The position numbers and the translations under genes were made by a program. Under the pieces are notes generated by a model, which worked only from the letters and a program-made list of their open reading frames with translations, did not search any database and was not told the DNA's origin. This document shows positions 11,617-60,769 of a stretch of DNA of 64,000 nucleotides, one piece after another; position 1 is the stretch's first letter, and every line of letters begins with the position of its first letter. The DNA is from Anaerolineales bacterium (GTDB lineage: Bacteria > Chloroflexota > Anaerolineae > Anaerolineales > Villigracilaceae): the NCBI GenBank assembly GCA_919902735.1, contig CAKKRM010000240.1:1-64000 (forward strand). The letters run 5' to 3'.

Positions 11617-11829
11617 ATGCCGCCTTTCGTAAATACAGAGTGCAAGAATTGCAACAAGCTCAACCGTTTTGACCTGGCTGAATTAAGAAAAGAAGATGGA
11701 AGCCTCGTTAAAGGTGTGCTGTATCGTGGTGAAGAAGATAATGAGGAAGTGTTCGAGAAAACCTGCCAGCATTGCGGCAGGAAGTTCAAGTTCACCGTGA
11801 AAGGCGGCGCAGATGGCGCGAAAAAGTAA
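11617..11829 (+). CDS. Small two-CxxC (zinc-ribbon-like) protein
   Basis: MPPFVNTECKNCNKLNRF...KTCQHCGRKFKF; SD-like ACAGGGAG; overlaps next ORF by 17 bp. Confidence 0.7.
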   Translation: MPPFVNTECKNCNKLNRFDLAELRKEDGSLVKGVLYRGEEDNEEVFEKTCQHCGRKFKFTVKGGADGAKK

Positions 11830-12283
11830 ACCCACGCAAGAAGATGAGATTTTTGTAGAGTCCACTCCCCTATCGGCGGAGGATGAACGGCTGGATAAAT
11901 TATTCGACGAGATGGAGCAAGGCTCGCTGAAAACGCTGGAGGATGCGGCGAGGCAGATCATCACCCTGTCCACTGCACTGCTTGGCGCGTTCTTTGGGTT
12001 GATGGCGTTCAAGGATGCGCCGAGTTATTTGGGATTCTTTGAGATCAAATTGATTGGCGCGCTGGCGTTGATTAGCTTCATGGCGGCGTTGTTCTTTGCA
12101 TTGCAGGCGGTTTCACCAAAGCGATACGATTTCCCACGCGCGAGTTTGACGGCCAAGCGAAAAATTTTGGAAGAGATGCTGACGAATAAACATCAAGCCG
12201 TGAACATGGCCGCATGGATTTTCGGAGTCGGCGCGTTTTTGATGCTGGTCGCGGCGTTGGATATTTTGATTTTTAGGCTGTAA
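11813..12283 (+). CDS. Small membrane protein, about 3 predicted TM segments
   Basis: 156 aa; hydrophobic stretches IITLSTALLGAFFGLMAF, LIGALALISFMAALFFAL, AAWIFGVGAFLMLVAALDILIF. Confidence 0.8.
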   Translation: MARKSKPTQEDEIFVESTPLSAEDERLDKLFDEMEQGSLKTLEDAARQIITLSTALLGAFFGLMAFKDAPSYLGFFEIKLIGALALISFMAALFFALQAVSPKRYDFPRASLTAKRKILEEMLTNKHQAVNMAAWIFGVGAFLMLVAALDILIFRL

Positions 12284-12294
12284 GATAAACCGTA

Positions 12295-12338
12295 GGACAA
12301 ACCTCTGGTTTGTCCTCCTCGCAAGTCGGAGACTTGCG
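12295..12338. repeat. Tandem double hairpin upstream of the CHAT gene
   Basis: GGACAAACC-tct-GGTTTGTCC followed by CGCAAGTC-gga-GACTTGCG. Confidence 0.7.
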
Positions 12339-12356
12339 TTACGTTGAGGAATTTAT

Positions 12357-43222: not shown

Positions 43223-44203
43223 ATGAAAACAAACATGACCATCAGGAGCCTATTGTTTATATTCACCGCCAGCATGTTGGCTGCATGTTCCGCGTTTCAA
43301 CCCGAGGAACAGTCGCTTCCTGCGCTACGCGTGGAATATAGTCCCTGGTGGGGTGATTACACCATCGTCATAGCGAAGGCCAATGGCCTTTTCGAAAAAT
43401 ATGGCGTTGAAGTTGAGGCCGTATACTATGATGTCTACTCCGATTCATTTGCAGATATGGCGGCTGGTCAATTGGACGGCGGCCTGTATGGTCTCGGCGA
43501 GGCTATGAAAGTTTCAGCTACCACGGAATTGAAATTGGTTGGTATTTACGATAATGGCGGTTTCAACACAATTATTGCAAAACCCGATATTACGAGCCTG
43601 GCAGACCTGCGCGGCAAGCGAATCGGTGTATTGTTAGGAACAGTCTATGAATTATTTGTCGTTCAGGCGCTTGCCAGTGCGGGCATCCAGCGCTCTGACG
43701 TTCAATTAGTAAACGTAGCCCCTGAGGATACAATCAGTCAATTTCCAAACAATCTTGATGCCGCCTATAGCTGGGAACCCGTCACGTCAGACGCAGTTGC
43801 ACAAGGCTTCAAAGTTCTTTTTACCAGTGACAAGATCGAAGAATTTGCAATACCCGATGGCATTTTTTTCCGCGCTTCCGTTGTACAACAACGGCCGGAG
43901 GATATCCGTGCCTTTATCAAAGCCTGGTACGAAGCGGTTGATTTCCGCCTTACAAACCCGGAAACATCCCGCCAGATCATAGCCGATTATATTGGCGTCT
44001 CAGTTGATGAAGTTTTCCCGGATCATCAACTTAAAATCATGACATTCACAGATAACCAGGGATACTTCGAGATAAAAGAAGCTGGCAAACCCAGCATTAT
44101 TATGAATACAGCTTCAACGATTGCGGACTTTTTCCTCCGCACAGGTATATTATCCAATTCTCCTGATCTAAATTCATTCCTTGACGCTTCCTATTTGAAA
44201 TAG
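43223..44203 (+). CDS. NMT1/SsuA/THI5-like substrate-binding lipoprotein (ABC permease/ATPase not present nearby)
   Basis: 326 aa; lipobox MLAACSAF; VEYSPWWGDYTIVIAKANGLFEKYGVEVEAVYYD...QLDGGLYGLGEAM; LADLRGKRIGVLLGTVYELFV. Confidence 0.88.
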   Translation: MKTNMTIRSLLFIFTASMLAACSAFQPEEQSLPALRVEYSPWWGDYTIVIAKANGLFEKYGVEVEAVYYDVYSDSFADMAAGQLDGGLYGLGEAMKVSATTELKLVGIYDNGGFNTIIAKPDITSLADLRGKRIGVLLGTVYELFVVQALASAGIQRSDVQLVNVAPEDTISQFPNNLDAAYSWEPVTSDAVAQGFKVLFTSDKIEEFAIPDGIFFRASVVQQRPEDIRAFIKAWYEAVDFRLTNPETSRQIIADYIGVSVDEVFPDHQLKIMTFTDNQGYFEIKEAGKPSIIMNTASTIADFFLRTGILSNSPDLNSFLDASYLK

Positions 44204-44234: not shown

Positions 44235-47087
44235 ATGTCCAATTTGCCAAGACCAGTATTTGCCAGTCAAACATCACTACCAGACGAGTTGCGCCGCAAG
44301 CAAAACGCAATACGCGTTAGCTTTATTTTAACTATCGCTTATTTGTCCGCGTTTACGCTTTACGCGTATCTTGCGCTCGAAGCGCGCTCCTGGCAGCTTT
44401 ATGGATTAAACGGGATCATGGCGGCCTTACTGGCAAGTTCGATAAGCGCCTTTGGGTTGATCCACCGAGATCGTATTGTTACAGGCGCATTTCTGATGAT
44501 TGGCACAATCGCAATAGGGTTTCCTCTTGCGATGATTTTAGAGTCAGGCCTCGGTCTGACATTGGGCATGGCAGCTCTTATGGGGATATCACTGATTTCC
44601 AGATTAACCCTTAAACAGCCGTATGAGGCCCGTGCGCTGGGAATCAGTGTTGTATCAGCGATCACTACTATTCTTCTCGATTATTCCCTTGCCATCGAGA
44701 GACCCTCCTTTCCGCTGATTTTGACCTATGTTCCCATCATTGCTACCATCACAATTGGTATATATGTTTTATTCATTGCACGGGAACTTCCAAATTACAA
44801 CCTGCGTACCAAGCTCATCCTTGCCTTCATTCTGGTTACCCTTGTGCCTCTCATTGTCCTGGGATATTTCTCAACCACCAGAACACGCGATATTCTTTAC
44901 CAAAACTCCACGACAGACCTCGAAGAGTCCGCCCATCTTCTTACACTCCAGGTGGATACGTTTGTCAATAATGAATTACGCAACTTGTACATTGAGTCGC
45001 AGGATCACAATTTTGTCCAATATCTATCGCTCACTCCCGCCCTGCGCGCCGGAAGCGGCGCCGAAAACAGCGCGCGCAAAGCGCTCACTGTTTTGTTTCG
45101 TAAAGACCCGGTATTTATTCAGTCCTACGCCCTGATCGACACAAATGGTCGAAACATACTAGATACAGCCGGCCAAAATCTCGGGCTTTATGAAAAGGAT
45201 TACGAGTATTTCAAAAAAACAGTCAGCGCAGGCGCACCAATCGTACATGGGCCTGTTTTCGACCAGCAAGACGGGCATGCCAGTTTATTCTTCAGCGCAC
45301 CGATAAGAAATGATAATGGCGGCTTCATTGGCATATTGCGAGTGGAATACAAGGCCAGCATCATCCAATCTATTGTGAATTCAACTTTCTCATTACAAGA
45401 AACTGACCGGTTAATCATGATCGTTGATCCGGAAACCTACGTCCGTATTGCGGATACAGGTGATATCGATGAATTATACAAATCGTTCAAGGATTTCAGC
45501 GCAACCGAAGTTGCCGAATTTCAGGCGCAAGGTCGAATGTTACCCGGCGCCCCGGCAGATGTGATTGATTTAACCGATCAATTTGTCGAAAGTGTAGATA
45601 ACCTAAGGACAACCCCTATCTTCAACGCCAACTCTGTTTACCTGGAAGGAATCGGCGTTGGCACAGGCGCTTTTCCGAAATCCGTGCCCTGGATAGTTAT
45701 TGTAAGCAAATCACAAAAAGGACTATTGGAGTCCATCAATACGCAAACACGCACGACAGTATTGATCTCCATGATATTGATAGCGCTTGCCACGCTGATA
45801 GCGTATTGGATTTCCTGGTTGTTGACCTCTCCAGTTAACAAACTCGCCGCTGTGGCGGATAAAATCGCGAACGGCGATCTAAGCGCCCGCGCGCACATCA
45901 CAACAGAAGATGAAGTTGGACAACTTGCAATCTCCTTCAATCGCATGACGGATGAACTTAATCTCATCATGAACGACCTGGGAATCCGTGTTGCAGAGCG
46001 AACGTACGAACTCGAAATTTCCCGCACACAAAGCGAGCGCCGCGCAAGTGAACTCCAGATCATCAGTGAAATATCAAAGGTGATTACCGGTGAACAAAAA
46101 TTAAGCGCCCTGCTCCCGTTGATCACCCATCTTGTCAGCGATCGATTTGGCTTCTATCACACAGGCGTATTCCTCATTGACGAATCAGGCAAATATGTTG
46201 TACTGCAAGCCGCCAGCAGCGAAGGCGGAAAAACCATGCTCGCCCACGGTCATAAGCTGGAAGCTGGCGAGAACGGAATTATCGGCCAGGTTGCAAAATT
46301 CGGCGTCCCCCGCATCCTGCTGAACATTGGGCCGGATACGGTTTTCTTCAACAACCCCCACCTCCCAGACACACGCTCTGAAATGGCGCTGCCATTGACT
46401 GCCCGCGGCAAAATCCTCGGCATACTGGATCTGCAAAGCGCCAAACCCGGCGCATTCACAGACTCAGACTTGAACACCATGAGCATCCTTGCGGACCAAA
46501 TCGCAATCGCCATTGAAAACGCCCGTCTCTTCCAGCAAACACAGCAGGCATTAACCGAAGCGGAAAGCCTGTATCGGCAAAATATCCAGGAAAGCTGGGG
46601 AGAGTTCAGCAACAACGAAGAGGCCATTGGATATCATCAAACATTAACAAGCGGCGAAAAACTGGCAAAGCCCATCGATACGGCTGAAATCCGCCAGGTG
46701 ATGAACCGCGGCAGCTCCATGGTATACAATGCCAGCGAAACCAACCAGGAGGCGTCGATTGTTATTCCGATCAAACTGCGCGGACAGGTAATTGGCGCAT
46801 TAAAAATCAACGCTCCTGAACAGGATCGAACCTGGACAAGGGACGAGGTCAACCTTGCAGAGACGATTTCAGAGCGTCTTTCCCTGTCCATTGAAAACGC
46901 CCGCCTGATCCAGGAATCTCAACGCCACGCATTCAAAGAGCAAACGATCAGCGAAGTTACAGGAAAGATCAGCGCATCCATTAATCTAAAAAACGTCCTG
47001 CAAACCGCAGTGGAAGAATTGGGGCGCGCCATGCCGGGCTCTGAAGTGATCATTGAATTTGAACAAAAGAACGGCAAAGTAATTTAA
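44235..47087 (+). CDS. TM-Cache-HAMP-GAF membrane sensor without output domain
   Basis: 950 aa; Cache SYALIDTNGRNILDTAGQNLGLYEKDYEYFKKTVSAGAPIVHGPVF, HAMP, GAF. Confidence 0.89.
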   Translation: MSNLPRPVFASQTSLPDELRRKQNAIRVSFILTIAYLSAFTLYAYLALEARSWQLYGLNGIMAALLASSISAFGLIHRDRIVTGAFLMIGTIAIGFPLAMILESGLGLTLGMAALMGISLISRLTLKQPYEARALGISVVSAITTILLDYSLAIERPSFPLILTYVPIIATITIGIYVLFIARELPNYNLRTKLILAFILVTLVPLIVLGYFSTTRTRDILYQNSTTDLEESAHLLTLQVDTFVNNELRNLYIESQDHNFVQYLSLTPALRAGSGAENSARKALTVLFRKDPVFIQSYALIDTNGRNILDTAGQNLGLYEKDYEYFKKTVSAGAPIVHGPVFDQQDGHASLFFSAPIRNDNGGFIGILRVEYKASIIQSIVNSTFSLQETDRLIMIVDPETYVRIADTGDIDELYKSFKDFSATEVAEFQAQGRMLPGAPADVIDLTDQFVESVDNLRTTPIFNANSVYLEGIGVGTGAFPKSVPWIVIVSKSQKGLLESINTQTRTTVLISMILIALATLIAYWISWLLTSPVNKLAAVADKIANGDLSARAHITTEDEVGQLAISFNRMTDELNLIMNDLGIRVAERTYELEISRTQSERRASELQIISEISKVITGEQKLSALLPLITHLVSDRFGFYHTGVFLIDESGKYVVLQAASSEGGKTMLAHGHKLEAGENGIIGQVAKFGVPRILLNIGPDTVFFNNPHLPDTRSEMALPLTARGKILGILDLQSAKPGAFTDSDLNTMSILADQIAIAIENARLFQQTQQALTEAESLYRQNIQESWGEFSNNEEAIGYHQTLTSGEKLAKPIDTAEIRQVMNRGSSMVYNASETNQEASIVIPIKLRGQVIGALKINAPEQDRTWTRDEVNLAETISERLSLSIENARLIQESQRHAFKEQTISEVTGKISASINLKNVLQTAVEELGRAMPGSEVIIEFEQKNGKVI

Positions 47088-47104: not shown

Positions 47105-49099
47105 ATGGCATTTGATTCTGACCTTCAAAATTCATCGACGTCGCGGGGCGTCTGGCAAGAAAGAATTCTTGCCGATATTAGCGTTCCCTGGAAACTGAAT
47201 TTGCTAATCCTGGTGATGATCATCGGAATCATAGCGGTTTTCTCCACCGCGCTGCAAGGCATTAACGCCATCCAAAATCAACAACGGTACAACTTCACTT
47301 CCATCAGCGCATCCATCACCGCGCTGAATGACGCCGACATTGCCCTGGGAGAAATACAAACCGAGCTGATCTTGCTAGAGAATTCGGCTCTCTCGCCGAA
47401 AGAAATAGACAGCCACCTCGAAAAAATCACAAATGCCGAGAACATAGCGGCATCTACATTGCAGGAATATGAAACGGACTGGCTCCCTCTTCTGGAATTA
47501 ACTCTCAACGCAGGAATTCCTCAAAATAGAAAAGAAGAAATCCAAAAAACTCTGGATGCTCTTCAAAATGACGAGATTTTACTTTTAACTCAAATTAATA
47601 ATAATTACCAGGCATACACTGCAGAATCGGCCATCTATTACCAAAACATAAAAAAAGGGGAGTATGACGACCAGGCTGAAGACCGGATTACCAATCTCCT
47701 TACCTCAACGCACCCTTCAATAAGGCAATTGATTTCGATACACAGTGAAAGACAACTCCTGGCCAATGAAATCTCCCAATCCATATATCTGGACCTCGGC
47801 ATCCGAATGATTTTCGCATTAACGCTGGCGGCTGGATTCGGTTTGATATTTGCAAACTCTGTTGCCCATTCGATTAGTTCGCGCTTAAATACCCTTGGCA
47901 ACAGCGCCCTGGCATTGCAGGATGATCTTCTTGATCGCCGCTCCAATATTTCTGTGATAGGAAATGATGAGATCGCCCTCGTGTCCAGATCGTTCGATGA
48001 AATGTCCGGACGCCTGAGGCAAATGTTTGCAGACCTTGAAAATAAAGTAAGGGAACGCACCCTAAAGCTTGCCGCCGCAACTGCAGAAAGCAACAAGCGC
48101 GCCCAGCAGTTCGAAGCGATCACCATCGTAGCGCGCGCCATCAGCGCCACCCAGAATTTACAGGAACTGCTTCCTCAAATATCCAGCGCCATCAGCGAAC
48201 AGTTTGGCTTTTACCATGTAGGCATCTTCCTGAACGATCCCGCCAATCAAACTGCCATGCTTCTCGCGGCGAATAGCGAAGGCGGAAAGAAAATGCTCCA
48301 GCGTAATCACCAACTCAGGATCGGCGAACAGGGTATCGTCGGGTACGTCACCCAAACCGGAAAATCACGCATCGCGCTGGACGTGGGAGAGGATGCCAAT
48401 TACTTCGACAACCCGGAACTACCTTCAACCCATTCTGAGATGGCGCTGCCCCTTAAAACAGGCAGCCGGGTAATCGGCGCGTTGGATATTCAAAGCACAG
48501 AGATTGGCGCTTTTACAGACGATGATTTTGAAGCCCTTTCGGCTTTAGCAGAACAGGTCAGCCTTGCCATTCAAAACGCCCGCCTGTTTGACCAAATAAA
48601 AAAGACACTTTCAGAATCCGAATCGATTCAACGTCAATACATCCGCGAATCCTGGGGACGCCTGTCGAAGGAGGAAAAGCTAAGTGGGTTCCGGTATTCC
48701 GGTGCGGGCGTCATCCCGTTGGATGATGAAACGAAAATCGCCGCAAGGGAAGAGACGAACGAAAAACGCAGGGTTAGCGTACCCATCATCCTGCGCGGTG
48801 AAACCATCGGCACGCTCTCGGTGCAGGTCCAAAAAAGCGAACGCGTCAGCGCAGACCAGATCGACTTGATCAAGGCTGTAGCAGAAAGCGTTGCTCTCTC
48901 CGCAGAAAACGCACGCCTCTTCGAGGAAACCTCCACCCGCGCAGAGCGGGAACGTCTCGTTTCCGAAATCACAACAAAAATACGCACGACCAACGACCCG
49001 CAGGAAATGATCCACACTGCCGTTGATGAACTAAAGCGCGCACTGGGCGTCACCCGCATCGAAATCGTCCCACAAAAAATGACGCCCCCGGATAATTAG
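47105..49099 (+). CDS. Four-helix-bundle-like ligand domain, HAMP, GAF membrane sensor without output domain
   Basis: 664 aa; two TM helices flanking a helical region, HAMP, GAF FYHVGIFLNDPANQTAMLLAANSEGGKKM. Confidence 0.87.
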   Translation: MAFDSDLQNSSTSRGVWQERILADISVPWKLNLLILVMIIGIIAVFSTALQGINAIQNQQRYNFTSISASITALNDADIALGEIQTELILLENSALSPKEIDSHLEKITNAENIAASTLQEYETDWLPLLELTLNAGIPQNRKEEIQKTLDALQNDEILLLTQINNNYQAYTAESAIYYQNIKKGEYDDQAEDRITNLLTSTHPSIRQLISIHSERQLLANEISQSIYLDLGIRMIFALTLAAGFGLIFANSVAHSISSRLNTLGNSALALQDDLLDRRSNISVIGNDEIALVSRSFDEMSGRLRQMFADLENKVRERTLKLAAATAESNKRAQQFEAITIVARAISATQNLQELLPQISSAISEQFGFYHVGIFLNDPANQTAMLLAANSEGGKKMLQRNHQLRIGEQGIVGYVTQTGKSRIALDVGEDANYFDNPELPSTHSEMALPLKTGSRVIGALDIQSTEIGAFTDDDFEALSALAEQVSLAIQNARLFDQIKKTLSESESIQRQYIRESWGRLSKEEKLSGFRYSGAGVIPLDDETKIAAREETNEKRRVSVPIILRGETIGTLSVQVQKSERVSADQIDLIKAVAESVALSAENARLFEETSTRAERERLVSEITTKIRTTNDPQEMIHTAVDELKRALGVTRIEIVPQKMTPPDN

Positions 49100-49117: not shown

Positions 49118-49906
49118 ATGCTAAAAACCATAGCCGTATCAAACGAAAAAGGCGGGGTGGCAAAAACCACCACAACCCTCTCCCTGGGCGCAGCCCTTAT
49201 GGAATTGGGAAATCGCATCCTGCTAATCGACCTGGACGCCCAGGCCAACCTTACCCTTGCGCTTGGCTTCGAACCAGGAGAAAACGAACACACCTCCAGC
49301 AATCTCATGTTGGATAACATCCCCCTGCTCGATGTTTGTAAAAAAACCGAGGTAAAAAACCTCGACCTCATTCCCTCAAGTTCGCGCATCGAAATATCGG
49401 AGCAATTCCTGCCTGTGCGCACGGGCTACACCACCATTCTCCAGCGCGCCATCCGCGCCACGCCCAACCTTCCTTATGATTACATCATTTTAGACTGCCC
49501 CCCCGCGCTTGGGGCAATCACAAAAAACGCGCTCGCCGCCTCAGACCTGCTGCTCATCCCAACCCAGGCAGAATACTTCTCGGCCTACGCGCTTCGCAAC
49601 ATGATGGCGCTCATCCGCAACATACGCGAGCAGGATAACCCCAACCTTGCCTATCGCATCCTCGTCACCATGCTGGACAGGAGAAACCGCACCCATCGCA
49701 ACATCCACGAGCAGCTTCGCTCCACCTTTGGCGAAGGCGTCTTTAACACCGTCATCGAAATGGACACAAAATTACGTGAAAGCCCCATCGCAGGGCTGCC
49801 CATCACCCAGTACAAATCCGGCGCGCGCGGCTCCACCCAATACCGCGTGCTCGCTCAGGAGCTAATGGAATATGTCAAAGAAACCGAAAATAGACAAGCG
49901 GCTTAA
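49118..49906 (+). CDS. ParA/MinD/Soj-like P-loop ATPase
   Basis: Deviant Walker A NEKGGVAKTTTT; LLIDLDAQANLTLALG; YDYIILDCPPALG. Confidence 0.93.
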   Translation: MLKTIAVSNEKGGVAKTTTTLSLGAALMELGNRILLIDLDAQANLTLALGFEPGENEHTSSNLMLDNIPLLDVCKKTEVKNLDLIPSSSRIEISEQFLPVRTGYTTILQRAIRATPNLPYDYIILDCPPALGAITKNALAASDLLLIPTQAEYFSAYALRNMMALIRNIREQDNPNLAYRILVTMLDRRNRTHRNIHEQLRSTFGEGVFNTVIEMDTKLRESPIAGLPITQYKSGARGSTQYRVLAQELMEYVKETENRQAA

Positions 49907-52900
49907 CAAACTCTTCAAGGATATTCAACCCGAAGAAAGTGTCACCAGATCGGGTGGCAGGCCCAGGGCGGAGGAAGAGGCGGCGCCTCCCTCCCCGCCG
50001 AAGGCTGTTCAAAAAAATCCCGTATCAGCCGCCTCCCCGATTCCAACCCGCAGAAGACAAACAGCCGGGCTATATTCGCCGGAAACAATGAGCAGGGCCG
50101 AAGCTATCTCTGCAGATTCATCCGCCTATTCCGTGAATATTCAAACAGGCGAACAGGATTGGGTAACCATGCGGCTGTTTGATGAGCAACAGCCGCGCCA
50201 GTGGTCGAGCGACGAGCAATTGCTCATCAAACAGGTGACCGATCAATTATCCCTGGCAATGGAAAACGCGCGCCTGTTCCAGGAAACGCAAAAACGCGCG
50301 CAGGAACTGGCCGCGGTTAACGAAGTGGTTTCATCCGTTGCGGGCGCGCTGGATCTTAAGCATACCCTGCAAAAAATTGCGGATAATCTGCTAAAGATAC
50401 TTTCCGCCGGGCGCGTTGGCATCACGTTGATGAACCCCGAAAAGACCGCCTTGATCCTGACCGCAGATGCGGTATCCATTTTTGGAACTTCAACAAATAT
50501 TGGGCTGCCCATTCCAATAGATGGCAACCCCGCCACCGAACAAGTAATTCGCACACGCAAACCCGTCTTCGTTCAGGATGCGCCCAACAACCCATTGGCA
50601 GGCCCCATCCGACAAACCCTGCTCGAACGCGGAACAAAAAACCTGCTCATCCTGCCCCTGCTGGCGGAAGATGAAGTGATCGGCACAATTGGCGTGGATT
50701 TTTACGACCTGGACCGCATGATCAGCGAGGATGAACTGCGTATTCTCGAAAACATCGTTTATCAAACCGCCACCGCCATTCAAAAAAACCAACTCTTTGA
50801 ACGCATCGAGCAATCTGAATCAGATTTACGCGCCTTGTTCAACTCGATGGAAGATGTTGTGCTGGTTATGAGCGCAGACGGGCGTTACGAACGCATTGCG
50901 CCCACCAACCCCGCGCGCTTGATTCGCCCACCGGAAGAACTGCTCGGAAAATTCGTGCATGAAGTGCTGCCCAGGGAAACCGCAGAGCGTTTTGTGGCCG
51001 CCATTCAGCAGACCTTGAACAGCCCTGAAAAAGTTCAACTGGAATATGAATTACCTGTCGGGAATGAATCGTTCTGGTTTCTTGCCAACCTTACAAAACT
51101 CGATGAAAACAAGGTCTTCTGGGTGGCGCGAGATATCACCGAGCGTAAAAAAGCGGAAGAAGCCATCCGCCGCAGGAACGAATATCTGGCTGTTTCCGCC
51201 GAGATCGGCAAACTGGTCACATCCACACTGGATTTGAATTCGATCTTTGCCCGCACCGTGAACCTGATCAATGAACGGTTTAATTTTTACTACGCCGCGA
51301 TCTACATCGTGGAAGAAACCGGGTTCAACGCCGCCCTGCGCGAAGCAACAGGCGCGGCTGGCGTGGAAATGAAAAAGCAAAATCATTCCCATCCGATTAA
51401 TCTCAAATCCACGGTGGGCAAGGTGGCATCGGAAGGGCAGGCGCTGGTCGTCAACGATATCAGAGCCAGCCCGCTGCACGTTGTCAATCCCCTGCTGCCG
51501 AACACCAAAGCGGAAGCGGCCATCCCCCTTCGGATTGGCAACCGCATCATCGGTGTGATCGATATTCAAGCGGAGAATACAGGCGCGTTCACCGAGGATG
51601 AGGTGGCAGTACTACAAACGCTTGCAGACCAGGTTGCGGTGGCAATTGACAATGCCCGTTCCTTCGAGCTTTCGCAACAGGCTGTTATGGAAATGCGCGA
51701 GATCGACCGCCTGAAAAGCCAGTTCCTTGCCAACATGAGCCACGAACTCCGCACGCCTCTCAATTCGATCATCGGCTTTTCACGCGTCATCTTAAAAGGG
51801 ATCGACGGACCGGTGACAGAATTGCAACAGCAAGACCTGACCGCCATTTACAACTCCGGCCAGCATTTGCTTGGCCTCATCAACGATATCCTCGATCTGG
51901 CAAAGATCGAAGCGGGCAAAATGGAGCTGGCCTTCGACGAAGTTAACATTTCGGATGTGGCTAACAGCGTGCTTTCCACCATGAGCGGTTTGGTAAAAGA
52001 CCGTCCGATTCAAATAAAGCGGGTGATTGAACCGAACCTGCCAACGGTCCGGGCAGATGCGATCCGCGTCCGACAGGTGATGATCAACCTGCTGTCTAAT
52101 GCCGCCAAATTCACGGAGGAAGGCGATATCGTCGTGGAAGTTGGACTGAAACCTGGCGCCCAGGGCCGCAACGAAATCAAGATAAGCGTGATCGATACAG
52201 GGCCGGGCATTTCCGAACAAGATCAGGAAAAGCTGTTCCAACCCTTCTCGCAAGTGGATGACTCTCCCACCCGCAAAACAGGCGGCACGGGTTTAGGCCT
52301 GTCCATCTGCCAGCAACTGATCAACATGCACGGCGGGCGCATTTGGGTTGAAAGCGCTGTGGGGAAAGGCAGCGTATTCTCCTTTACCCTGCCGCTCTTC
52401 CGCAAAGAAAGGGAAAACGATACTCAGCCGAACGGAAATAAAATCATCCTTGCCATAGACGATGATCCGCAAGTGATCGGGTTATATGAGCGCTACCTGC
52501 ATCCGCAGGGATACCAGGTTGTGCCATTGACCGACCCATCGCGCGCGGTGGAACGGGTGAGGCAATTGAAACCGTTTGCAATTACACTGGATATTATGAT
52601 GCCGGGCATAGATGGCTGGCAGGTTTTGGACGCCCTGAAAGGCGACCCGGTGACCCGCCACATTCCCGTCATTGTTTGCAGTATCATCGAAGACTTGGAA
52701 AAAGGCTTCAACCTCGGAGCCTCGGAATATCTTGTCAAGCCCATTCTTGAGGATGATCTGGTCAACGCGCTCGACCGCCTGAATGCAGACGGTTCCATTC
52801 GGGATGTGCTGGTTATCGACGATAACCCGGATGATCTGCGCTTGATCGCAAAGATATTGAACGATGACGGCAGGTACAAAGCCATCCTGGCCGAAGGCGG

Positions 52901-53189
52901 AAACAGCGGTTGGAATATAATTTCCACCGGAAGCCCGCCGCACGCCATCATCCTGGATTTGTTCATGCCGGATATGAACGGCTTTCAAATTCTCGAGAAA
53001 TTACAGGCCGATAAAAAACTGCGCGATATTCCAACCATTGTCATCAGCGGCATGGAGTTGTCGTTGGAACAAAAGAATCAGCTAAATGAATTTGGCCGGC
53101 AGGTGCTGGCCAAGGGAGAGTTCAGCGAAAAGGAATTGCTGACATCCATTCAACGTTCACTGGAACGCATCCAGGCGAGTAACAAGTAA
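49872..53189 (+). CDS. Hybrid histidine kinase: basic N-terminus, GAF remnant, GAF, PAS, GAF, HisKA, HATPase_c, REC, REC
   Basis: 1105 aa; MSHELRTPLNSIIGFSR (H-box), N/G boxes (MINLLSNAAKFT, DTGPGISEQD, GTGLGLSICQQL), two REC domains (ITLDIMMPGIDGW; IILDLFMPDMNGF); 35-bp overlap with parA-like gene. Confidence 0.93.
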   Translation: MSKKPKIDKRLNKLFKDIQPEESVTRSGGRPRAEEEAAPPSPPKAVQKNPVSAASPIPTRRRQTAGLYSPETMSRAEAISADSSAYSVNIQTGEQDWVTMRLFDEQQPRQWSSDEQLLIKQVTDQLSLAMENARLFQETQKRAQELAAVNEVVSSVAGALDLKHTLQKIADNLLKILSAGRVGITLMNPEKTALILTADAVSIFGTSTNIGLPIPIDGNPATEQVIRTRKPVFVQDAPNNPLAGPIRQTLLERGTKNLLILPLLAEDEVIGTIGVDFYDLDRMISEDELRILENIVYQTATAIQKNQLFERIEQSESDLRALFNSMEDVVLVMSADGRYERIAPTNPARLIRPPEELLGKFVHEVLPRETAERFVAAIQQTLNSPEKVQLEYELPVGNESFWFLANLTKLDENKVFWVARDITERKKAEEAIRRRNEYLAVSAEIGKLVTSTLDLNSIFARTVNLINERFNFYYAAIYIVEETGFNAALREATGAAGVEMKKQNHSHPINLKSTVGKVASEGQALVVNDIRASPLHVVNPLLPNTKAEAAIPLRIGNRIIGVIDIQAENTGAFTEDEVAVLQTLADQVAVAIDNARSFELSQQAVMEMREIDRLKSQFLANMSHELRTPLNSIIGFSRVILKGIDGPVTELQQQDLTAIYNSGQHLLGLINDILDLAKIEAGKMELAFDEVNISDVANSVLSTMSGLVKDRPIQIKRVIEPNLPTVRADAIRVRQVMINLLSNAAKFTEEGDIVVEVGLKPGAQGRNEIKISVIDTGPGISEQDQEKLFQPFSQVDDSPTRKTGGTGLGLSICQQLINMHGGRIWVESAVGKGSVFSFTLPLFRKERENDTQPNGNKIILAIDDDPQVIGLYERYLHPQGYQVVPLTDPSRAVERVRQLKPFAITLDIMMPGIDGWQVLDALKGDPVTRHIPVIVCSIIEDLEKGFNLGASEYLVKPILEDDLVNALDRLNADGSIRDVLVIDDNPDDLRLIAKILNDDGRYKAILAEGGNSGWNIISTGSPPHAIILDLFMPDMNGFQILEKLQADKKLRDIPTIVISGMELSLEQKNQLNEFGRQVLAKGEFSEKELLTSIQRSLERIQASNK

Positions 53190-53207: not shown

Positions 53208-54860
53208 GTGTCATTTATCATCAAGTGCCTGGACTGTGGGCACAATGCGCCCTACTATCCAACATCCTCCACCTGCCCCAAATGCGGCAGTCAATGGAGG
53301 GAAGCAGAGTACGATTATGAGCGGATAGGAAAAACCATGCTCGCGCTGCTTTCTACAAGGCCGGCAGGCCTTTGGCGGTATCGGGAATTACTGCCTGTTC
53401 GAAATCCTAATGTCAGCCTTTCGCTCGGCGAAGGAAGCACTCCGTTGATCCGGGCTGGGAATTTGGGGATGATGCTGGGCTGTCCCAACATTTTCATAAA
53501 AGACGAAAGGCAGGGGCCAACTTCCTCTTTTAAGGACAGGCAGGCCGCAGTAACCATTGCCGCCCTCAAGGAAGCGGGCATCACTGAAATGGTCGCCGCG
53601 TCCACTGGGAACGTGGCAATATCCTATTCCGCATACGCCTCCCGCGCAGGGATGAAGCTATGGGCGTTCGTAACCAGCCTGGTTCCAGCAGTAAAAATGC
53701 GCGAGATCGCGCTTTACGGAAGCCAGGTAATCAAGATCACCGGTTCGTACGACCAGTGCAAGCAGGTGGCTTCCGAGTTTGCGCGCCAACGCCGTTTGTA
53801 TCAGGATATGGGCGCGCGCACCATCACATCCATCGAAGCGATGAAAACCATCGCCTTTGAAATTGCGGAACAATTGACAGCCGTGCAGGGGCCCGGTGAA
53901 AACAGCCCCTGGCGCACGCCAGATTGGTACGTGCAGGCGATCAGCGGCGGCATGGGGCCGCTGGGCGTTTACAAAGGCTTCCGCGAAATGAAGCAGATGG
54001 GATGGATTGACCGCATTCCAGCCTTTGCCCCCATCCAGGCGGAGGGCTGCGCACCCATGGTCAATAGCTGGAAAAAAGGTCTGGAAAAAGTCGAACCGGT
54101 AAAATCGCCAAAAACACGCATCGAAACCCTTGCCACCGGCGACCCCGGGCGCTCCTATGAATTTCTGCGTGAACACGTCAACAATACGAACGGGGCATTC
54201 GAAAGCGTGAGTGATGAGGATGCCTTCCGCGCCATGCACGTTCTTGCCAAGATGGAGGGCATCTCCGCCGAACCCGCCGCCGCCGCCGCATTTGCAGGCT
54301 TGTTCAAATTGATCCGCGCCGGGGTCATCAAACCCAGCGATACGGTTGTGGTCAATTGCACCGGGCACACCATGCCGGCCGAGCCGAGCATCCTTGGAGA
54401 TAACTGGTCGCGTGATGTTAAATTCCCAACCTTCGAAGAGACTCCCCAGGAAGGCCTGCTCTCCGCGCTCACGCAGGTTGCCCCGGAGCGCTTCCCCAAA
54501 ATCGTAATCGTGGAAGATACCACCGAAGCGCGGCGACTGATTCGCCGCATCCTGCAATCGCAGGGCAATTTTACGATCATGGAAGCAGTGAACGGGCGCG
54601 AAGGACTCGAACTCATCCAGAAAGAACTGCCCGACCTCATCATCCTGGATTTGATGATGCCTGAAATGGACGGCTTTACCGTGATCGAATCGCTGCGAGC
54701 CAACCCCGAAACTGCAACCATTCCCGTTATTGTCGCAACGGCAAAAGAGTTGACCCCCGACGAAAAAAGCAGGCTGGGCGGCCAGATACAATCCCTGATG
54801 CAAAAGGGTGATTTCCTCAACGACGAATTTCTGGAAGAAGTAAAATCGTTAATAAAATAA
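53208..54860 (+). CDS. Threonine-synthase-like PLP enzyme fused to C-terminal response-regulator receiver domain
   Basis: 550 aa, GTG start with CAGGAGATCC; CLDCGH...CPKCG, PLP lysine GPTSSFKDRQA, ASTGNVAISYSAYASRAG; REC KIVIVEDTTEARRLIRRIL...DLIILDLMMPEMDGF...VIVATAKE...LMQKGDF. Confidence 0.92.
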   Translation: MSFIIKCLDCGHNAPYYPTSSTCPKCGSQWREAEYDYERIGKTMLALLSTRPAGLWRYRELLPVRNPNVSLSLGEGSTPLIRAGNLGMMLGCPNIFIKDERQGPTSSFKDRQAAVTIAALKEAGITEMVAASTGNVAISYSAYASRAGMKLWAFVTSLVPAVKMREIALYGSQVIKITGSYDQCKQVASEFARQRRLYQDMGARTITSIEAMKTIAFEIAEQLTAVQGPGENSPWRTPDWYVQAISGGMGPLGVYKGFREMKQMGWIDRIPAFAPIQAEGCAPMVNSWKKGLEKVEPVKSPKTRIETLATGDPGRSYEFLREHVNNTNGAFESVSDEDAFRAMHVLAKMEGISAEPAAAAAFAGLFKLIRAGVIKPSDTVVVNCTGHTMPAEPSILGDNWSRDVKFPTFEETPQEGLLSALTQVAPERFPKIVIVEDTTEARRLIRRILQSQGNFTIMEAVNGREGLELIQKELPDLIILDLMMPEMDGFTVIESLRANPETATIPVIVATAKELTPDEKSRLGGQIQSLMQKGDFLNDEFLEEVKSLIK

Positions 54861-54872
54861 AGGCTGGCACCT

Positions 54873-55820
54873 TTGCCAAAAAAACAAACAGCCGGGATTG
54901 CAGCGGCATTTAGCTCAGCGTTCTTCCTCGGGTTGGCGCCTGTTTTTGGAAAACTCGCCATCACCCAGGGATTCACGCCGTTGGCAGTGGTGGCGCTGCG
55001 TACGGGCTTTGCCGCTGGAATACTCTTCCTGGTTGTTTTGCTTTTCTACCGCCAGTACTTTTATATCTTTCCGGTGGGGTTGGTTGGCTGTATTCTAGCC
55101 GGCGCAATCAATGGGTTGGGCTCCCTGCTTTATTACCTCGCGCTCGAACGGCTGGACGCAAGTTTGGGCCAATTGCTCTACTCGTTGTATCCATTCTTTG
55201 TGGCTCTCTGGCTTGTGCTCGATCATCAACCCCAAAGCCGCCTGACGTTTTTTCGCATCATCCTTGCAACGATTGCTGTTCTGTTGCTTACAAGCGTTCC
55301 CGGCCGTTCTGTGGACGCCAGCGGGGTATTCATGATGATCGGCGCCGCAGTGCTCTATGCCATGCACCTGCCGATCAACCAGCGCGTTCTTTACGAAGTC
55401 CCCGCCCCCACCGTGGCCCTTTATACATTGCTTTCGATGAGCGCAGTGGTCATCCCGGCGTATTTTTTATTTGACCGCGCCTGGCCCGCCACAAGCATTC
55501 CGTGGCTACCCGTGGCTGGGTTAACCTTCGTCACTGTCTTTTCGCGGATCGCTTTGTTCCTGGGGGTGAAGAAGATTGGCGGAATGCAAACCGCATTATT
55601 GGGACTCGCCGAACTTTTGATTGCGATCTTCTTTAGCAGCATTTGGCTTGGCGAAAGCCTTTCCCCCCTCCAATGGCTGGGCGCGCTCGGACTCAGCATC
55701 AGCCTGATTCTGGTAATGTACGAACATCCCTCCGCCCCGACACATAGCGGGAAAACCGGCTGGCTTTCATGGATCCGCGCGCCAGGACTGCCAAAGGATA
55801 TATTTGGCCCGTACGAATAA
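54873..55820 (+). CDS. EamA/DMT-family transporter
   Basis: 315 aa; about ten hydrophobic segments; SSAFFLGLAPVFGKLAI, LERLDASLGQLLYSLYPFFVALW; TTG start. Confidence 0.87.
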   Translation: MPKKQTAGIAAAFSSAFFLGLAPVFGKLAITQGFTPLAVVALRTGFAAGILFLVVLLFYRQYFYIFPVGLVGCILAGAINGLGSLLYYLALERLDASLGQLLYSLYPFFVALWLVLDHQPQSRLTFFRIILATIAVLLLTSVPGRSVDASGVFMMIGAAVLYAMHLPINQRVLYEVPAPTVALYTLLSMSAVVIPAYFLFDRAWPATSIPWLPVAGLTFVTVFSRIALFLGVKKIGGMQTALLGLAELLIAIFFSSIWLGESLSPLQWLGALGLSISLILVMYEHPSAPTHSGKTGWLSWIRAPGLPKDIFGPYE

Positions 55821-55859: not shown

Positions 55860-56588
55860 TTATTTATCGCCTTCGTATAAATAGCCCGTTCCACGCACGC
55901 TGACCACCTGCTCCGAAAGGGAGGGGAATTGCTCCAGTTTGTGCCGCAAGCGGCTGACCAGCGGGCGCAGGATCTCCGGCGCTTCCTGCTGGGAGGTATC
56001 GTAGCCCTGAACCAGTAAAACCAATTCACGGTGCGAAAACACCTTTCCTTTATTCTCCATCAAAATCTTCAGCAGCCGGCCTTCCGCCGGAGTCAGGTGT
56101 TCGATTTTGCTCTTGAACTTAATCTGGCGGCGCGAGAGATCAACTGTTGTGCCGTCTTTCAAGTTGAAAACTTCCTGGCCGCCTTCATCTGCCGAAGAAA
56201 CGCTATTCAGGTGGGACCTGGCCGAGCGGCGCGAGAGGCCTTTCTTCACTGTGGCAATGATCTGCGCAGGGGATGCGGGTTTGAGAAGGTAATCATGAAT
56301 CCGCAGCCGTAACGCCTGGATGGCGGTTTCAGTGGAGCCGTACGCCGTCAGCAGGATTACCTCGGTTTCCGGCGAAACCTGGTTGACAACCTGCACCACT
56401 TCCAGCCCGTCCATGCCGGGCATTTTCAGGTCTACAATCATCAAGTCCACATTATGGGTGCGGACATATTCAACTGCGGCCTGTCCGTTTGGCGCAGAGG
56501 CAACGATGTGGCCTTCCAGTTTTAGGATATCGGTGAGGGATTGTCTTGCGACAGGCTCATCATCTACAACCAGAATATTCGATTTCAT
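55860..56588 (-). CDS. Response regulator with winged-helix DNA-binding domain
   Basis: 242 aa; ILVVDDEPVARQSL, LMIVDLKMPGMDG, LLKPASP; C-terminal LTPAEGRLLKILMENKGKVFSHREL...VSRLRHKLEQ...VVSVRGTGYLYE. Confidence 0.92.
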   Translation of the reverse strand: MKSNILVVDDEPVARQSLTDILKLEGHIVASAPNGQAAVEYVRTHNVDLMIVDLKMPGMDGLEVVQVVNQVSPETEVILLTAYGSTETAIQALRLRIHDYLLKPASPAQIIATVKKGLSRRSARSHLNSVSSADEGGQEVFNLKDGTTVDLSRRQIKFKSKIEHLTPAEGRLLKILMENKGKVFSHRELVLLVQGYDTSQQEAPEILRPLVSRLRHKLEQFPSLSEQVVSVRGTGYLYEGDK

Positions 56589-58165
56589 TGCTTTCCTCCT
56601 CCAGGTAAGAATATGCGGAAACAGGCGCCGGGCCCGCGGTCTGGCAGGTATTCCAATACGCCGCCGTGCGCTGTAATTATATTGTAACTCACAGTCAGCC
56701 CCAAGCCGGTACCGCCGTCTTTTGTGCTGAAAAATGGTTCGAAAATATTGGCCTGTTTTTCTTTTGGGATGCCGTTGCCGTTATCCTGAAAAATAACCTC
56801 AACGCCCTGGCGTGTCGGGCGGGCTGTGATATGCAGTTTGCCGCCTTGCGGCATGGCGTCGGCGGCGTTCAGGATGAGGTTGATAAACACCTGCTGGATC
56901 TGGCTGCTGACGGCCATGATAGCCAGTGGCTGTGCGGGGAAGTCGGCCTCCACGGTTACATTGGTTTCATTAAGCTGTTTGGACATCAACGTAACGATGT
57001 ATTGGAGCGCCTCGGCCAGATTTATAGTTTCAAGGGAGCTTGTGCCGGGGCGGTAGAAATCCAACATGCGGCGGACGGTGAGCATGAGCCGTTCGAGTTC
57101 GGTGCGCGCGAGGTCGAAGTATTCCTTGCGCTTTTCTTCGGGCAGGTCTTCGCGGCCGGCAAGGTGCAGGCAATTTTGCACGGCTTGCAATGGGTTGTTG
57201 ACTTCGTGCGCGATGGATGCGCTCAGGCGGCCTGCGGCTGCCATCTTCTCGGCCTGCAATAATGCCTTTTGGGATTCTTCCACTTTGCGGACGTAGTCCA
57301 ATTGTTCGGCGTACAAACGCGCATTCTCCAGCGCGGCAATGGACTGGCGCGCCAAAATCTGGAACATCTCGAGGTCTGATTCGCGGAAGGGGGGTTCGCC
57401 GACTGCGCGGGCGGCGTACAACATCATGCTCAGGTTTGGGCGGAGGATTGGCGTCAGGATAACGGCGCCAAGCCCGAGCGCGGAAAGATGCGTTTTGAGG
57501 GTGGAGTCGCCTGGGCCGCTGGCGTTGATAAATAAAGGCGCGGAAGATTCGTCTACGCGGGAAATTAAATCCAAATGCAGTTGGGAGGCGGGGAAACCGC
57601 GCGATGCGAGCAGGGTGTATTTTCCTGATTCAATTTCCAGTTGGTAGCAGGCGGCCTGCGAACACTGCATGTGACCGCAGATGGCGTTGACGATGAGGTC
57701 GAGCAGGGGTTCACGGCGGGTTTCGGAAAGCAGCGCTTCGGTGACGGAAAACAAGGGGCGCAGGGCGCGGGTGCGGGCGGCGTCGCGTTTGGTTTGGCTG
57801 TCTGCGAGGGCAAGTTTGACGGCTTCGATCAATTCGTTGCCCTGGCTGAACGGTTTCAGTAAAAGGCCGTCGACACCCTGCCGCAGGGCGCGGATGGCGG
57901 TTTCGACTGTGCCATGCCCGGTCATGATGAGTACGGCGGCGTCGGGCTGGAGGCGTTGGGTGTGTTGGATCACTTCGAAGCCATCCACTTCGGGCATGCG
58001 GATATCGACGAGCAGCAGGTTGATCTTGTTTTCTTTCAAGTATTCGATGGCTTTGCGCGGGTCGGTTTCGGTTGCGACTTTGTACCCTGCACGGGTGAGC
58101 AGGCGGTTGCACAGCAATGCAATGCCTGGTTCATCGTCCACTACGAAGACAAAAGGATTTTCCAT
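56585..58165 (-). CDS. REC-GAF-HisKA-HATPase histidine kinase
   Basis: 526 aa; VFVVDDEPGIALL, LLLVDIRMPEVDGF, SASIAHEVNNPLQAVQNCL, GTGLGLTVSYNII; ATGA overlap with downstream RR. Confidence 0.92.
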   Translation of the reverse strand: MENPFVFVVDDEPGIALLCNRLLTRAGYKVATETDPRKAIEYLKENKINLLLVDIRMPEVDGFEVIQHTQRLQPDAAVLIMTGHGTVETAIRALRQGVDGLLLKPFSQGNELIEAVKLALADSQTKRDAARTRALRPLFSVTEALLSETRREPLLDLIVNAICGHMQCSQAACYQLEIESGKYTLLASRGFPASQLHLDLISRVDESSAPLFINASGPGDSTLKTHLSALGLGAVILTPILRPNLSMMLYAARAVGEPPFRESDLEMFQILARQSIAALENARLYAEQLDYVRKVEESQKALLQAEKMAAAGRLSASIAHEVNNPLQAVQNCLHLAGREDLPEEKRKEYFDLARTELERLMLTVRRMLDFYRPGTSSLETINLAEALQYIVTLMSKQLNETNVTVEADFPAQPLAIMAVSSQIQQVFINLILNAADAMPQGGKLHITARPTRQGVEVIFQDNGNGIPKEKQANIFEPFFSTKDGGTGLGLTVSYNIITAHGGVLEYLPDRGPGACFRIFLPGGGKQ

Positions 58166-58171
58166 AATATG

Positions 58172-60769
58172 TTAGATGGGCAGCCAGACTTCGAAGGTGG
58201 AGCCGTAATCTGGCTGGCTTGAGATCTCGATGATGCCGCCATGGTCGGTGACGATGCCATAGGTGACGGAGAGGCCCAGGCCTGTGCCGCCGCGATCTCC
58301 TTTGGTGGTGAAGAATGGTTCAAAGATACGGCCCTGGTCTTCAGGGGAAATTCCGCTTCCGCTGTCTTTGACGCTCAGGATAACCCAGCCTCGTGATTCG
58401 CGTTTTGCAAGGTGGGTGCCCACAGTCAACTCACCGCCGTTCTTCATGGCTTGCAAGGCATTGTGGATCAGGTTCAGTAGGACTTGCTTCATCTGGTTGG
58501 TGTCTATGGATATCCAGGGCAGGTTTTCAGCAAGTTGAAGAACGAGGTTTACATTATTGGTTTGGATCAGGTGCCGTGTCAGCGCGATGACATCATGTAC
58601 CACTTCGTTGATGTCGGCGCTGGTGCGCATCCGTTCGCCCTGGCGGGAGAAATCCAAAAGGCGGCGGACAACGCCGCTGGCGCGCCGCGCCTCTTGCAAG
58701 ACCATTTCCAGTTCGTTGCGATGGGGAGAGTCTTTGGCGAGTTCATCCAAAACGATTTCGGAGAACCCGGTGACGGTGGTCAGCGGGTTGTTCAATTCGT
58801 GCGCGATGCCCGCGGCCATCTCACCGACTGCCGCGAGTTTGGCGGCCTGCAACAGCCTGTTTTCCGCGGACTGCTGGGCTTCCATGCGGGCGTTCAATTC
58901 GATTTCGGTGGCGCGCAGTTGACGGACGGTCTCCTGTAATTTTTGGGTTTGGTTGGCGCTGGAGATCACCGAAGCAAGAATGCCCGCCAGTGATTCCATG
59001 GCGATCAGGTCGTTGTGCGAGAAGGCGTTCTGGTCCCTGCTTTCCACGTCAATGATGCCGAGGACGGTTTCGCCGTCTTTCACAGCCACACAGACTTCGG
59101 AACGCGCCTCCCAGCCTTTGATGGCTTTGTACAAGCCGTCCTGCGCCGTATCGTTGACGAGGATGCTTTCCCCTGTGCGCGCCACCTGGCCTGTGACTCC
59201 ATCCACTTTGATGAACTCGCCACCTGCCAGCGCGGTTTTGAGAGTCTCTGCGTGCGTGCCGCCAATGCCTTGAATGGCAAACCTTTGCTCGTCATCCATC
59301 AGCAAAATGACGGCGAGTTCGTATTTGAAGTATTGGGCCACCAGTTCGGCGGCAATAGCCGCCACTTCGTTTTTATCGTTCAGGCCAATAACCTCTTGCA
59401 CCACTTCGTGGATCAACCCCAGGCTGCGCGCGCGGCCTTCCGCTTCTTCACGCAGGCGGGTGTATTCGATGAGTCCCGCCAGATGGCTGGCGATCACCAC
59501 CATCAAGTGTTCGTCGTACTGGCTGAAGGCTTCGGCATAGGTGTTCTCGATGACAAGTACCCCGATGGGTTGGCCGCGATATTTGAGTGGAACGACCAGT
59601 TCGGAACGCGCGCCTTTGTGGACGCCGATAAACCCGTCCCGCGTGGTCTCTGCAATGCGGCGGACACGTCCCTCTTTTAACACCGACTGCATGGAATGCC
59701 CTGAAAGCGAGACGCTGATCACATTCAATTTGCCTTCGAACATGCGATAATCCCGCAGGATGCGCCCATCGCTGGAACGCAGAAAGAGCGCGATCAATTC
59801 GGTGTTGAAGGCGCGGGTAAGCAGGCCAAACATGCGCCGCGCGATCTGGTCTAAATTTTGGGCGGAGGAAACTGTCAACACAAAGTCATTCAGCAAACCA
59901 AGCCTGCGAAGGTGCGAGGCCATTTCAGAAAAGGTCACCACCACTTCCACCGAGGGCGGCACTCGCGCCGCCAGGTCGCGCAATTGTCCGCGCTCGGCCT
60001 GCGAGAATTCCTTTTGACGCCACAACGCCACCACCCCAATGACCCGATGGCCGATGACCAACGGCAGGCAGACCCACGCATTTGTGCCAGACTTCAACAC
60101 GCCGTAGGGAAGATTATCCCAATTGGGCTGACCGCGCAGGATAAGCACATCGGCAAGGGATCGGTTCACACGACGGAGAACAGGATTCTCATCTATCAGC
60201 AGGGACACCCCCTTGGCTTTTGGCGCATTCCACTCCGCCTGAATGTCGAATGATTCGCCGCGTCGTATCGCCAGCCACGCTCCCTGGCACGGCACAGACT
60301 GTACGAAGGCGCCGAGCACTTTTTCGAGGGCGAGCGGCAGATCGAAAGCCAGACCAGATTGCAGGTCCGGCAGGAACGGTTGATTGGGCGCAGCGCTCCG
60401 CCCTGAGAGCAGGGACGCGGTCAACTTCCAAATTCTCTGCGCTGTGGCAGATTGTTCATCCGCGCCGACAATGACGCTTTGGGATGTGCCGTTGACTGGA
60501 AAGGCGTAAATGCGCGCTGTATTAAGTTTGCTTCCTTCAGGCATGGAGGTGAAACGAGAATAGCCCCCACTGAGCGAGCCGCACAACCAGGCATCTATGG
60601 CGGGGGCTGTTAGAATGCCCATCAATTCATTTTGAGTAATCTTGTTAAGCTTATATACAGAACGAAGCAGCCACGCGCCGCCCACCCGCTCTGCAAGTAC
60701 CGCCCATACTGCGTCGGAAAGCTGCGCCGCATCTTTGAGTTGAGTTTCTATGCCGTTTTCGGTTTGCAT
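58172..60769 (-). CDS. GAF-containing histidine kinase
   Basis: 865 aa; multiple GAFs; AAGIAHELNNPLTTVTGFSEIV, GTGLGLSVTYGIV. Confidence 0.92.
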   Translation of the reverse strand: MQTENGIETQLKDAAQLSDAVWAVLAERVGGAWLLRSVYKLNKITQNELMGILTAPAIDAWLCGSLSGGYSRFTSMPEGSKLNTARIYAFPVNGTSQSVIVGADEQSATAQRIWKLTASLLSGRSAAPNQPFLPDLQSGLAFDLPLALEKVLGAFVQSVPCQGAWLAIRRGESFDIQAEWNAPKAKGVSLLIDENPVLRRVNRSLADVLILRGQPNWDNLPYGVLKSGTNAWVCLPLVIGHRVIGVVALWRQKEFSQAERGQLRDLAARVPPSVEVVVTFSEMASHLRRLGLLNDFVLTVSSAQNLDQIARRMFGLLTRAFNTELIALFLRSSDGRILRDYRMFEGKLNVISVSLSGHSMQSVLKEGRVRRIAETTRDGFIGVHKGARSELVVPLKYRGQPIGVLVIENTYAEAFSQYDEHLMVVIASHLAGLIEYTRLREEAEGRARSLGLIHEVVQEVIGLNDKNEVAAIAAELVAQYFKYELAVILLMDDEQRFAIQGIGGTHAETLKTALAGGEFIKVDGVTGQVARTGESILVNDTAQDGLYKAIKGWEARSEVCVAVKDGETVLGIIDVESRDQNAFSHNDLIAMESLAGILASVISSANQTQKLQETVRQLRATEIELNARMEAQQSAENRLLQAAKLAAVGEMAAGIAHELNNPLTTVTGFSEIVLDELAKDSPHRNELEMVLQEARRASGVVRRLLDFSRQGERMRTSADINEVVHDVIALTRHLIQTNNVNLVLQLAENLPWISIDTNQMKQVLLNLIHNALQAMKNGGELTVGTHLAKRESRGWVILSVKDSGSGISPEDQGRIFEPFFTTKGDRGGTGLGLSVTYGIVTDHGGIIEISSQPDYGSTFEVWLPI

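Follow-up and report, generated by a model that had tools for sequence, protein, structure and literature searches.

A recurrent PLP enzyme–receiver domain fusion in Chloroflexota: a candidate response regulator with a metabolic output

A 64,000-nucleotide stretch of DNA from an Anaerolineales bacterium (contig CAKKRM010000240.1; hereafter the window) encodes a 550-residue protein in which a zinc-ribbon and a fold-type-II PLP domain are followed by a complete receiver (REC) domain. The fusion is not an accident or an assembly join, since it is found in related genomes and in other Chloroflexota lineages, has a low dN/dS and has a fused paralogue in the same genome. Because it is real, conserved and linked to a kinase gene, and because the key residues of both its REC and PLP domains are intact, direct gating by phosphorylation is the best reading of it. 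We propose, with moderate confidence, that the fusion is an atypical response regulator, phosphorylated by the adjacent kinase, and that a functional fold-type-II PLP enzyme of the threonine-synthase superfamily forms its output, so that a metabolic reaction is switched directly. DNA binding or second messengers are the usual outlets of response regulators; in this protein a phosphorelay appears to be wired straight into a PLP amino-acid enzyme, by a fusion that seemingly arose once and was kept across much of the phylum.

Architecture and conservation of the fusion

The fusion gene begins with GTG, preceded by AGGAG, and a gap of 18 nt separates it from the kinase gene on its 5′ side (Table 1). 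The original prediction had described a threonine-synthase-like PLP enzyme and a complete REC in one open reading frame, 18 bp downstream of a hybrid kinase that itself has two REC domains. Each element was borne out: Pfam places PALP (PF00291) at residues 72–386 (E=7.9e-65) and Response_reg (PF00072) from residue 432 (E=6.6e-20), and the kinase domains and spacing agree with Pfam and the coordinates. The REC positions that had been claimed intact are the acidic pair E436/D437, the phospho-acceptor D481, T511 and K533, the last in a KG context where KP is usual. In the enzyme domain, K109 of the motif SSFKDR is the PLP lysine. A predicted structure of the fusion had a mean pLDDT of 81.5, its low-confidence parts being the linker and the last receiver helix, and threonine synthases were the top PDB fold matches when this model was used in a structure search.

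Table 1. Coordinates of the fusion, its domains and the neighbouring genes in the window
Feature	Coordinates	Strand	Basis
NMT1/THI5-like substrate-binding lipoprotein	43223..44203	+	Pfam; homologue in L045
dCache-HAMP-GAF sensor protein without kinase domain	44235..47087	+	Pfam
HAMP-GAF sensor protein without kinase domain	47105..49099	+	Pfam; similar sensors upstream in other loci
Orphan ParA-family ATPase, Walker A KGGVAKTT	49118..49906	+	Pfam AAA_31 5.6e-49
Cytosolic hybrid histidine kinase GAF-PAS-GAF-HisKA-HATPase-REC-REC, presumed phosphodonor	49872..53189	+	Pfam; gene order
ParB-like N-terminal peptide of the kinase, MSKKPKIDKRLNKLFKDIQPEE	49872..49937	+	conserved together with ParA
PLP-enzyme/receiver fusion ‘TSR-A’, 550 aa	53208..54860	+	conserved across the aligned fusions (105 type A, 25 type B)
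Zinc-ribbon-like four-cysteine motif (C7, C10, C23, C26) of the fusion	53226..53285	+	alignment
PALP domain (fold-type-II PLP enzyme), residues 72–386	53421..54365	+	Pfam; fold matches to threonine synthase
Schiff-base Lys109 codon of the fusion	53532-53534	+	
Receiver domain of the fusion, residues 431–550	54498..54857	+	Pfam; residue conservation
Phospho-acceptor Asp481 codon of the fusion	54648-54650	+	
EamA-family (DMT) transporter, 3′ of type A fusions	54873..55820	+	Pfam; conserved position
OmpR-type response regulator, convergent block	55860..56588	-	conserved
REC-containing histidine kinase, convergent block	56585..58165	-	
GAF histidine kinase, convergent block	58172..60769	-	

Maximum-likelihood analysis of the PLP domain groups every fusion in a single clade, on a long stem and with 100/100 support, and leaves 13 stand-alone sequences outside it. 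The clade comprises two paralogous types, A and B, and the genome of the window carries both; its second fused copy, on contig C160 (L039 14229-15884), is 49% identical to the first over nearly the whole length. The simplest history would be a single fusion event before the split between A and B, with the caveat that the tree is midpoint-rooted and some of its branches are long.

An alignment of 130 fusions (105 of type A, 25 of type B) showed D437, D481 and K533 in all 130, with E or D at 436 and T or S at 511 throughout, so that the acidic pair, acceptor Asp, T/S and Lys of a response-regulator REC are present across the set. K109 was found in 129 of the 130, the remaining row having a gap. 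N135 (of the GN motif), S246-GG-x-G (the glycine-rich phosphate loop) and T/S385 (near the ring nitrogen) are likewise conserved as in fold-type-II enzymes, their roles being assigned by alignment to threonine synthases. Each of the four zinc-ribbon-like cysteines is present in 104/105 type A and 25/25 type B sequences. Common to both types, and mostly missing from stand-alone ThrC homologues, is a signature consisting of Q112, G202, SGG(M/L)GP at 246–251, GxPG at 311–314 and N-x-(T/S)-G-H-T at 383–388.

The original prediction had called for a search for the architecture, and for conservation of the operon, across genomes; the fusion does recur, and with it the kinase linkage. Strong matches (E<=1e-60) were found in 35 of 41 related genomes. 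In 34 of these the match was to a frame of fused length or, in one genome (G017), to an interrupted frame, while G038 matched through a stand-alone ThrC homologue only. The G017 type A gene is split over two frames (L061 10325-11470), which reflects either a pseudogene or a sequencing indel; its type B fusion gene is intact. In a phylum-wide draw of 400 Chloroflexota genomes, 42 matched at E<=1e-75, every match being an open frame of about 545 residues or longer, and the genomes without a match included no member of the window's family. Across the 41 relatives and this draw no unfused member of the clade was seen, one interrupted gene excepted. The fusion also occurs in f46 and f35, placed in the same phylum only, and in f17, f18, f22, f23 and f24, placed in the same class. 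The best 80 loci of a contig scan were nearly all titled Chloroflexota or Anaerolineae. One contig titled Blastopirellula marina (L132) holds a complete Chloroflexota-type cluster, and its organism label is probably wrong. A search of viral contigs found no relative; in plasmid records no single place covered 80% of the query, and the matches listed fall in the PLP domain.

Pairwise dN/dS of the whole fusion gene was 0.016–0.053, which shows strong purifying selection. The value was about 0.02 in both domains, the REC being constrained as strongly as the enzyme. Among the genes of the cluster, compared in the 46 loci where it is complete, the fusion was the best conserved, with a median identity to the window of 87%, compared with 79% for EamA, 77% for ParA and 65% for the kinase. 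An assembly join or frameshift between separate genes, named at the outset as what would overturn the prediction, was looked for and is ruled out by the recurrence in relatives and the low dN/dS.

Kinase linkage and gene neighbourhood

A kinase gene lies directly 5′ of the fusion in 124 of 136 loci, and its assignment as the cognate kinase is by gene linkage only. The remaining loci comprise several contig ends or artefacts of ORF starts, one unfused ThrC homologue and four real orphans (L048, L195, L192 and L204). In two of these (L048 8321-13439 and L195 8063-12172) a second, kinase-less copy of the fusion sits between genes for an Mrp/ApbC-type Fe-S carrier and a peptide deformylase, and in L048 an ARMT1-like phosphatase gene follows. 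The neighbours scanned beside the L192 orphan had no Pfam matches, and no substrate emerged from the orphan neighbourhoods examined for functional clues.

Type A loci run from Cache/HAMP/GAF sensors without kinase domains through ParA, the hybrid kinase, the fusion and EamA to a convergent block, in which two kinases accompany an OmpR-type regulator; EamA lies 3′ of the fusion in nearly all of them. The type B order is sensors, kinase, fusion, a stand-alone REC and often a ThrC-like gene. In the type B locus of the window's genome (L039), whose kinase gene lies at 11828-14227, a Cache-HAMP-GAF sensor gene has an in-frame TAG at 10925-10966 where the GAF motif predicts CAG, either a nonsense change or a sequence error. 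The EamA family includes amino-acid exporters, and it is a guess that EamA exports the product of the fusion; both such export and any feedback to the sensors would be speculative.

The two types differ in the C-terminal part of the kinase: type A kinases mostly have two C-terminal REC domains and type B kinases have none (23/23 loci). As the type B kinase has no REC of its own, the fused REC is the obvious acceptor. The only recognisable HPt in the window's genome is on contig C44, inside an unrelated hybrid protein, which speaks against a multistep relay through a local HPt. Given the REC-less type B kinases and the single HPt elsewhere in the genome, transfer from the kinase His directly to the REC of the fusion is the simplest path, clearest in type B, and is the one we infer. 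Other kinases could also supply phosphate to the type A REC, as could the two REC domains of the hybrid kinase via an unseen HPt.

The type A kinase may in addition connect the cluster to the nucleoid. The ParA gene overlaps the start of the kinase gene by 35 nt, and the orphan ParA is distinct from the chromosomal ParA encoded on contig C112. The N-terminus of the kinase, MSKKPKIDKRLNKLFKDIQPEE, resembles the N-terminal peptide of the genome's own ParB, MAQRKGLGKGLDALI. Of the 77 type A kinases encoded next to ParA, 75 have a motif of the form [RQ][LIV]xx[LIF]F near their start, and correcting the start codon reveals it in the remaining two; it was found in one of the eight type A kinases without ParA and in 7.5% of ORFs as background, although these counts are not independent because the loci are related. 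ParB is known to bind ParA through its N-terminal peptide and so to stimulate the ATPase activity of ParA (PMC7333895), and a precedent for such positioning is the ParA-like PpfA, which interacts with TlpT and places a chemosensory cluster in the cytosol (PMC6829392). The gene for the orphan ParA adjoins that of a candidate partner with a ParB-like N-terminal peptide, as a ParA-positioned signalling cluster would require, and since this peptide accompanies the ParA gene a nucleoid-positioned signalling cluster is plausible. Type B kinases of the same family mostly have the ParB-like motif without a local ParA; they could use the ParA of type A.

Taken from sensor to enzyme, the proposed mechanism would run as follows. 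Several sensors would feed the histidine kinase encoded just 5′ of the fusion, and the kinase would phosphorylate Asp481 in the C-terminal REC. Phospho-Asp481 would change how active the PLP domain is or how it assembles, putting the enzyme's activity under the control of phosphorylation, and signalling would thereby switch a metabolic reaction directly. In type A, the kinase would probably also recruit the upstream ParA via its ParB-like peptide, and the sensor-enzyme complex may be placed on the nucleoid. The many Chloroflexota that carry the fusion thus probably switch an amino-acid reaction by signalling directly and not via gene expression.

Function of the PLP domain and alternative readings

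The original prediction coupled the sensors to threonine or a related metabolite, and threonine itself does not stand up as the product. The fusion scores below the curated cut-offs for both threonine synthase equivalogs of NCBIfam, at 161.7 bits against 167.1 for TIGR00260 and 265.8 against 303 for PRK08197; the type B paralogue scores 161.2 and 242, respectively. The second, stand-alone thrC that the prediction had suggested looking for is present: it adjoins thrB on contig C40 and scores 297 bits with TIGR00260 (cut-off 167), which rules out the fusion as the housekeeping threonine synthase. Two other ThrC-like genes lie on contigs C47 and C160. The one on C160 (L039 16311-17489), a PRK08197-type ThrC homologue on a different contig from that of thrB, comes after the REC gene that follows the type B fusion. 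In Thermus threonine synthase T88, N154, S155, R160 and N188 are, we assume, the residues that bind the phosphate of phosphohomoserine; the fusions have V136/A, M201, G202, S208/A and P251 at the aligned positions, a difference that we treat as a lead. The stand-alone thrC, the missed cut-offs and this distinctive active-site signature leave the threonine reading unsupported. The substrate would probably not be O-phosphohomoserine; the likeliest candidates are different amino acids with a beta or gamma substituent or a hydroxy group.

We regard it as improbable that two-component signalling here controls a true threonine synthase whose product is used in the cell or exported. In favour of this reading, the closest curated families and folds are threonine synthases, and exporters of amino acids are known within the EamA family. 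The main rival to an enzymatic output, which we consider unlikely but less so, is that the PLP domain serves as a ligand sensor or docking platform, binding an amino acid through PLP and tuning the uptake of phosphate by the REC from the kinase. The aminotransferase-like domain of MocR/GabR regulators senses ligands in such a way, the threonine-synthase residues at the assumed phosphate site are replaced in the fusions, and the separate REC protein that follows type B fusions could be the true output. Domains associated with REC may also be inputs (PMC5847659). However, the Lys, glycine loop, GN and TGH motifs are kept across the 130 sequences and no other gene of the cluster is as well conserved as the fusion, both of which fit catalysis better than mere binding.

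The REC might instead be a mere tether that brings a constitutively active, ungated enzyme to the kinase or to a ParA-positioned cluster. The ParA gene and the ParB-like peptide of the kinase do suggest a localised complex, but all 130 sequences keep the REC's phospho-acceptor Asp, its acidic residue, the T/S and the Lys, pointing to phosphorylation rather than mere docking, and we give this reading little weight. A bolder reading, in our view doubtful to a similar degree, extends phospho-gating: phosphorylation within a ParA-positioned cluster would turn on a PLP synthase, EamA would export its product as a new diffusible signal resembling an amino acid, and the operon's Cache/GAF and substrate-binding proteins would sense it. 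If so, the sensor cluster would be a self-contained, phospho-gated loop that produces its own signal.

A phospho-gated enzyme, the reading we prefer, would be a clean case of two-component post-translational control over small-molecule metabolism, and would offer an unassigned enzyme activity to find.

Comparison with known systems

The fusion resembles threonine synthase (ThrC; TIGR00260, PRK08197; PDB 2d1f, 1uim, 1v7c, 2zsj) in its fold and Schiff-base Lys motif, with roughly 30% identity over the PLP domain, and shares its N-terminal four-cysteine motif with stand-alone Chloroflexota ThrC homologues. It differs from threonine synthase in its C-terminal REC and invariant signature (the SGG(M/L)GP loop, Q112, G202, GxPG and NxTGHT), as well as in the altered positions of the assumed phosphate site, the missed curated cut-offs and the separate thrC of the genome.

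REC domains fused to a KaiC-like ATPase, a BcsA-like glycosyltransferase, thioredoxin reductase or pyruvate phosphate dikinase are known, and archaea have been noted to possess response regulators that carry metabolic enzymes and are narrowly distributed (PMC5847659). Like these, the fusion joins a REC to an enzyme, is restricted to a lineage and belongs to a group with little experimental work; in contrast to them, its output is a PLP amino-acid enzyme, its REC is C-terminal, and it is found in several lineages of one phylum with a conserved kinase neighbour. No published description of a fusion between a PLP amino-acid enzyme and a REC was found in the literature searched, outside which the two main Galperin censuses fall. 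As sampled in Chloroflexota, the fusion would add a new type of output to a kind of protein that is already known.

Linkage of a PLP enzyme gene to a sensor kinase gene is also seen in CqsA/CqsS and LqsA/LqsS/LqsR (PMC3376566), but CqsA and LqsA are autoinducer synthases of the aminotransferase-like fold type I and have no fused REC. The orphan ParA linked to a cytosolic signalling protein recalls the ParA-positioned chemosensory cluster of PpfA and TlpT (PMC6829392, PMC9178275), except that here the ParB-like N-terminal peptide belongs to the candidate partner, a hybrid histidine kinase, and no chemoreceptor is involved. With this peptide, the idea that ParA positions a kinase cluster unrelated to chemotaxis can be tested directly.
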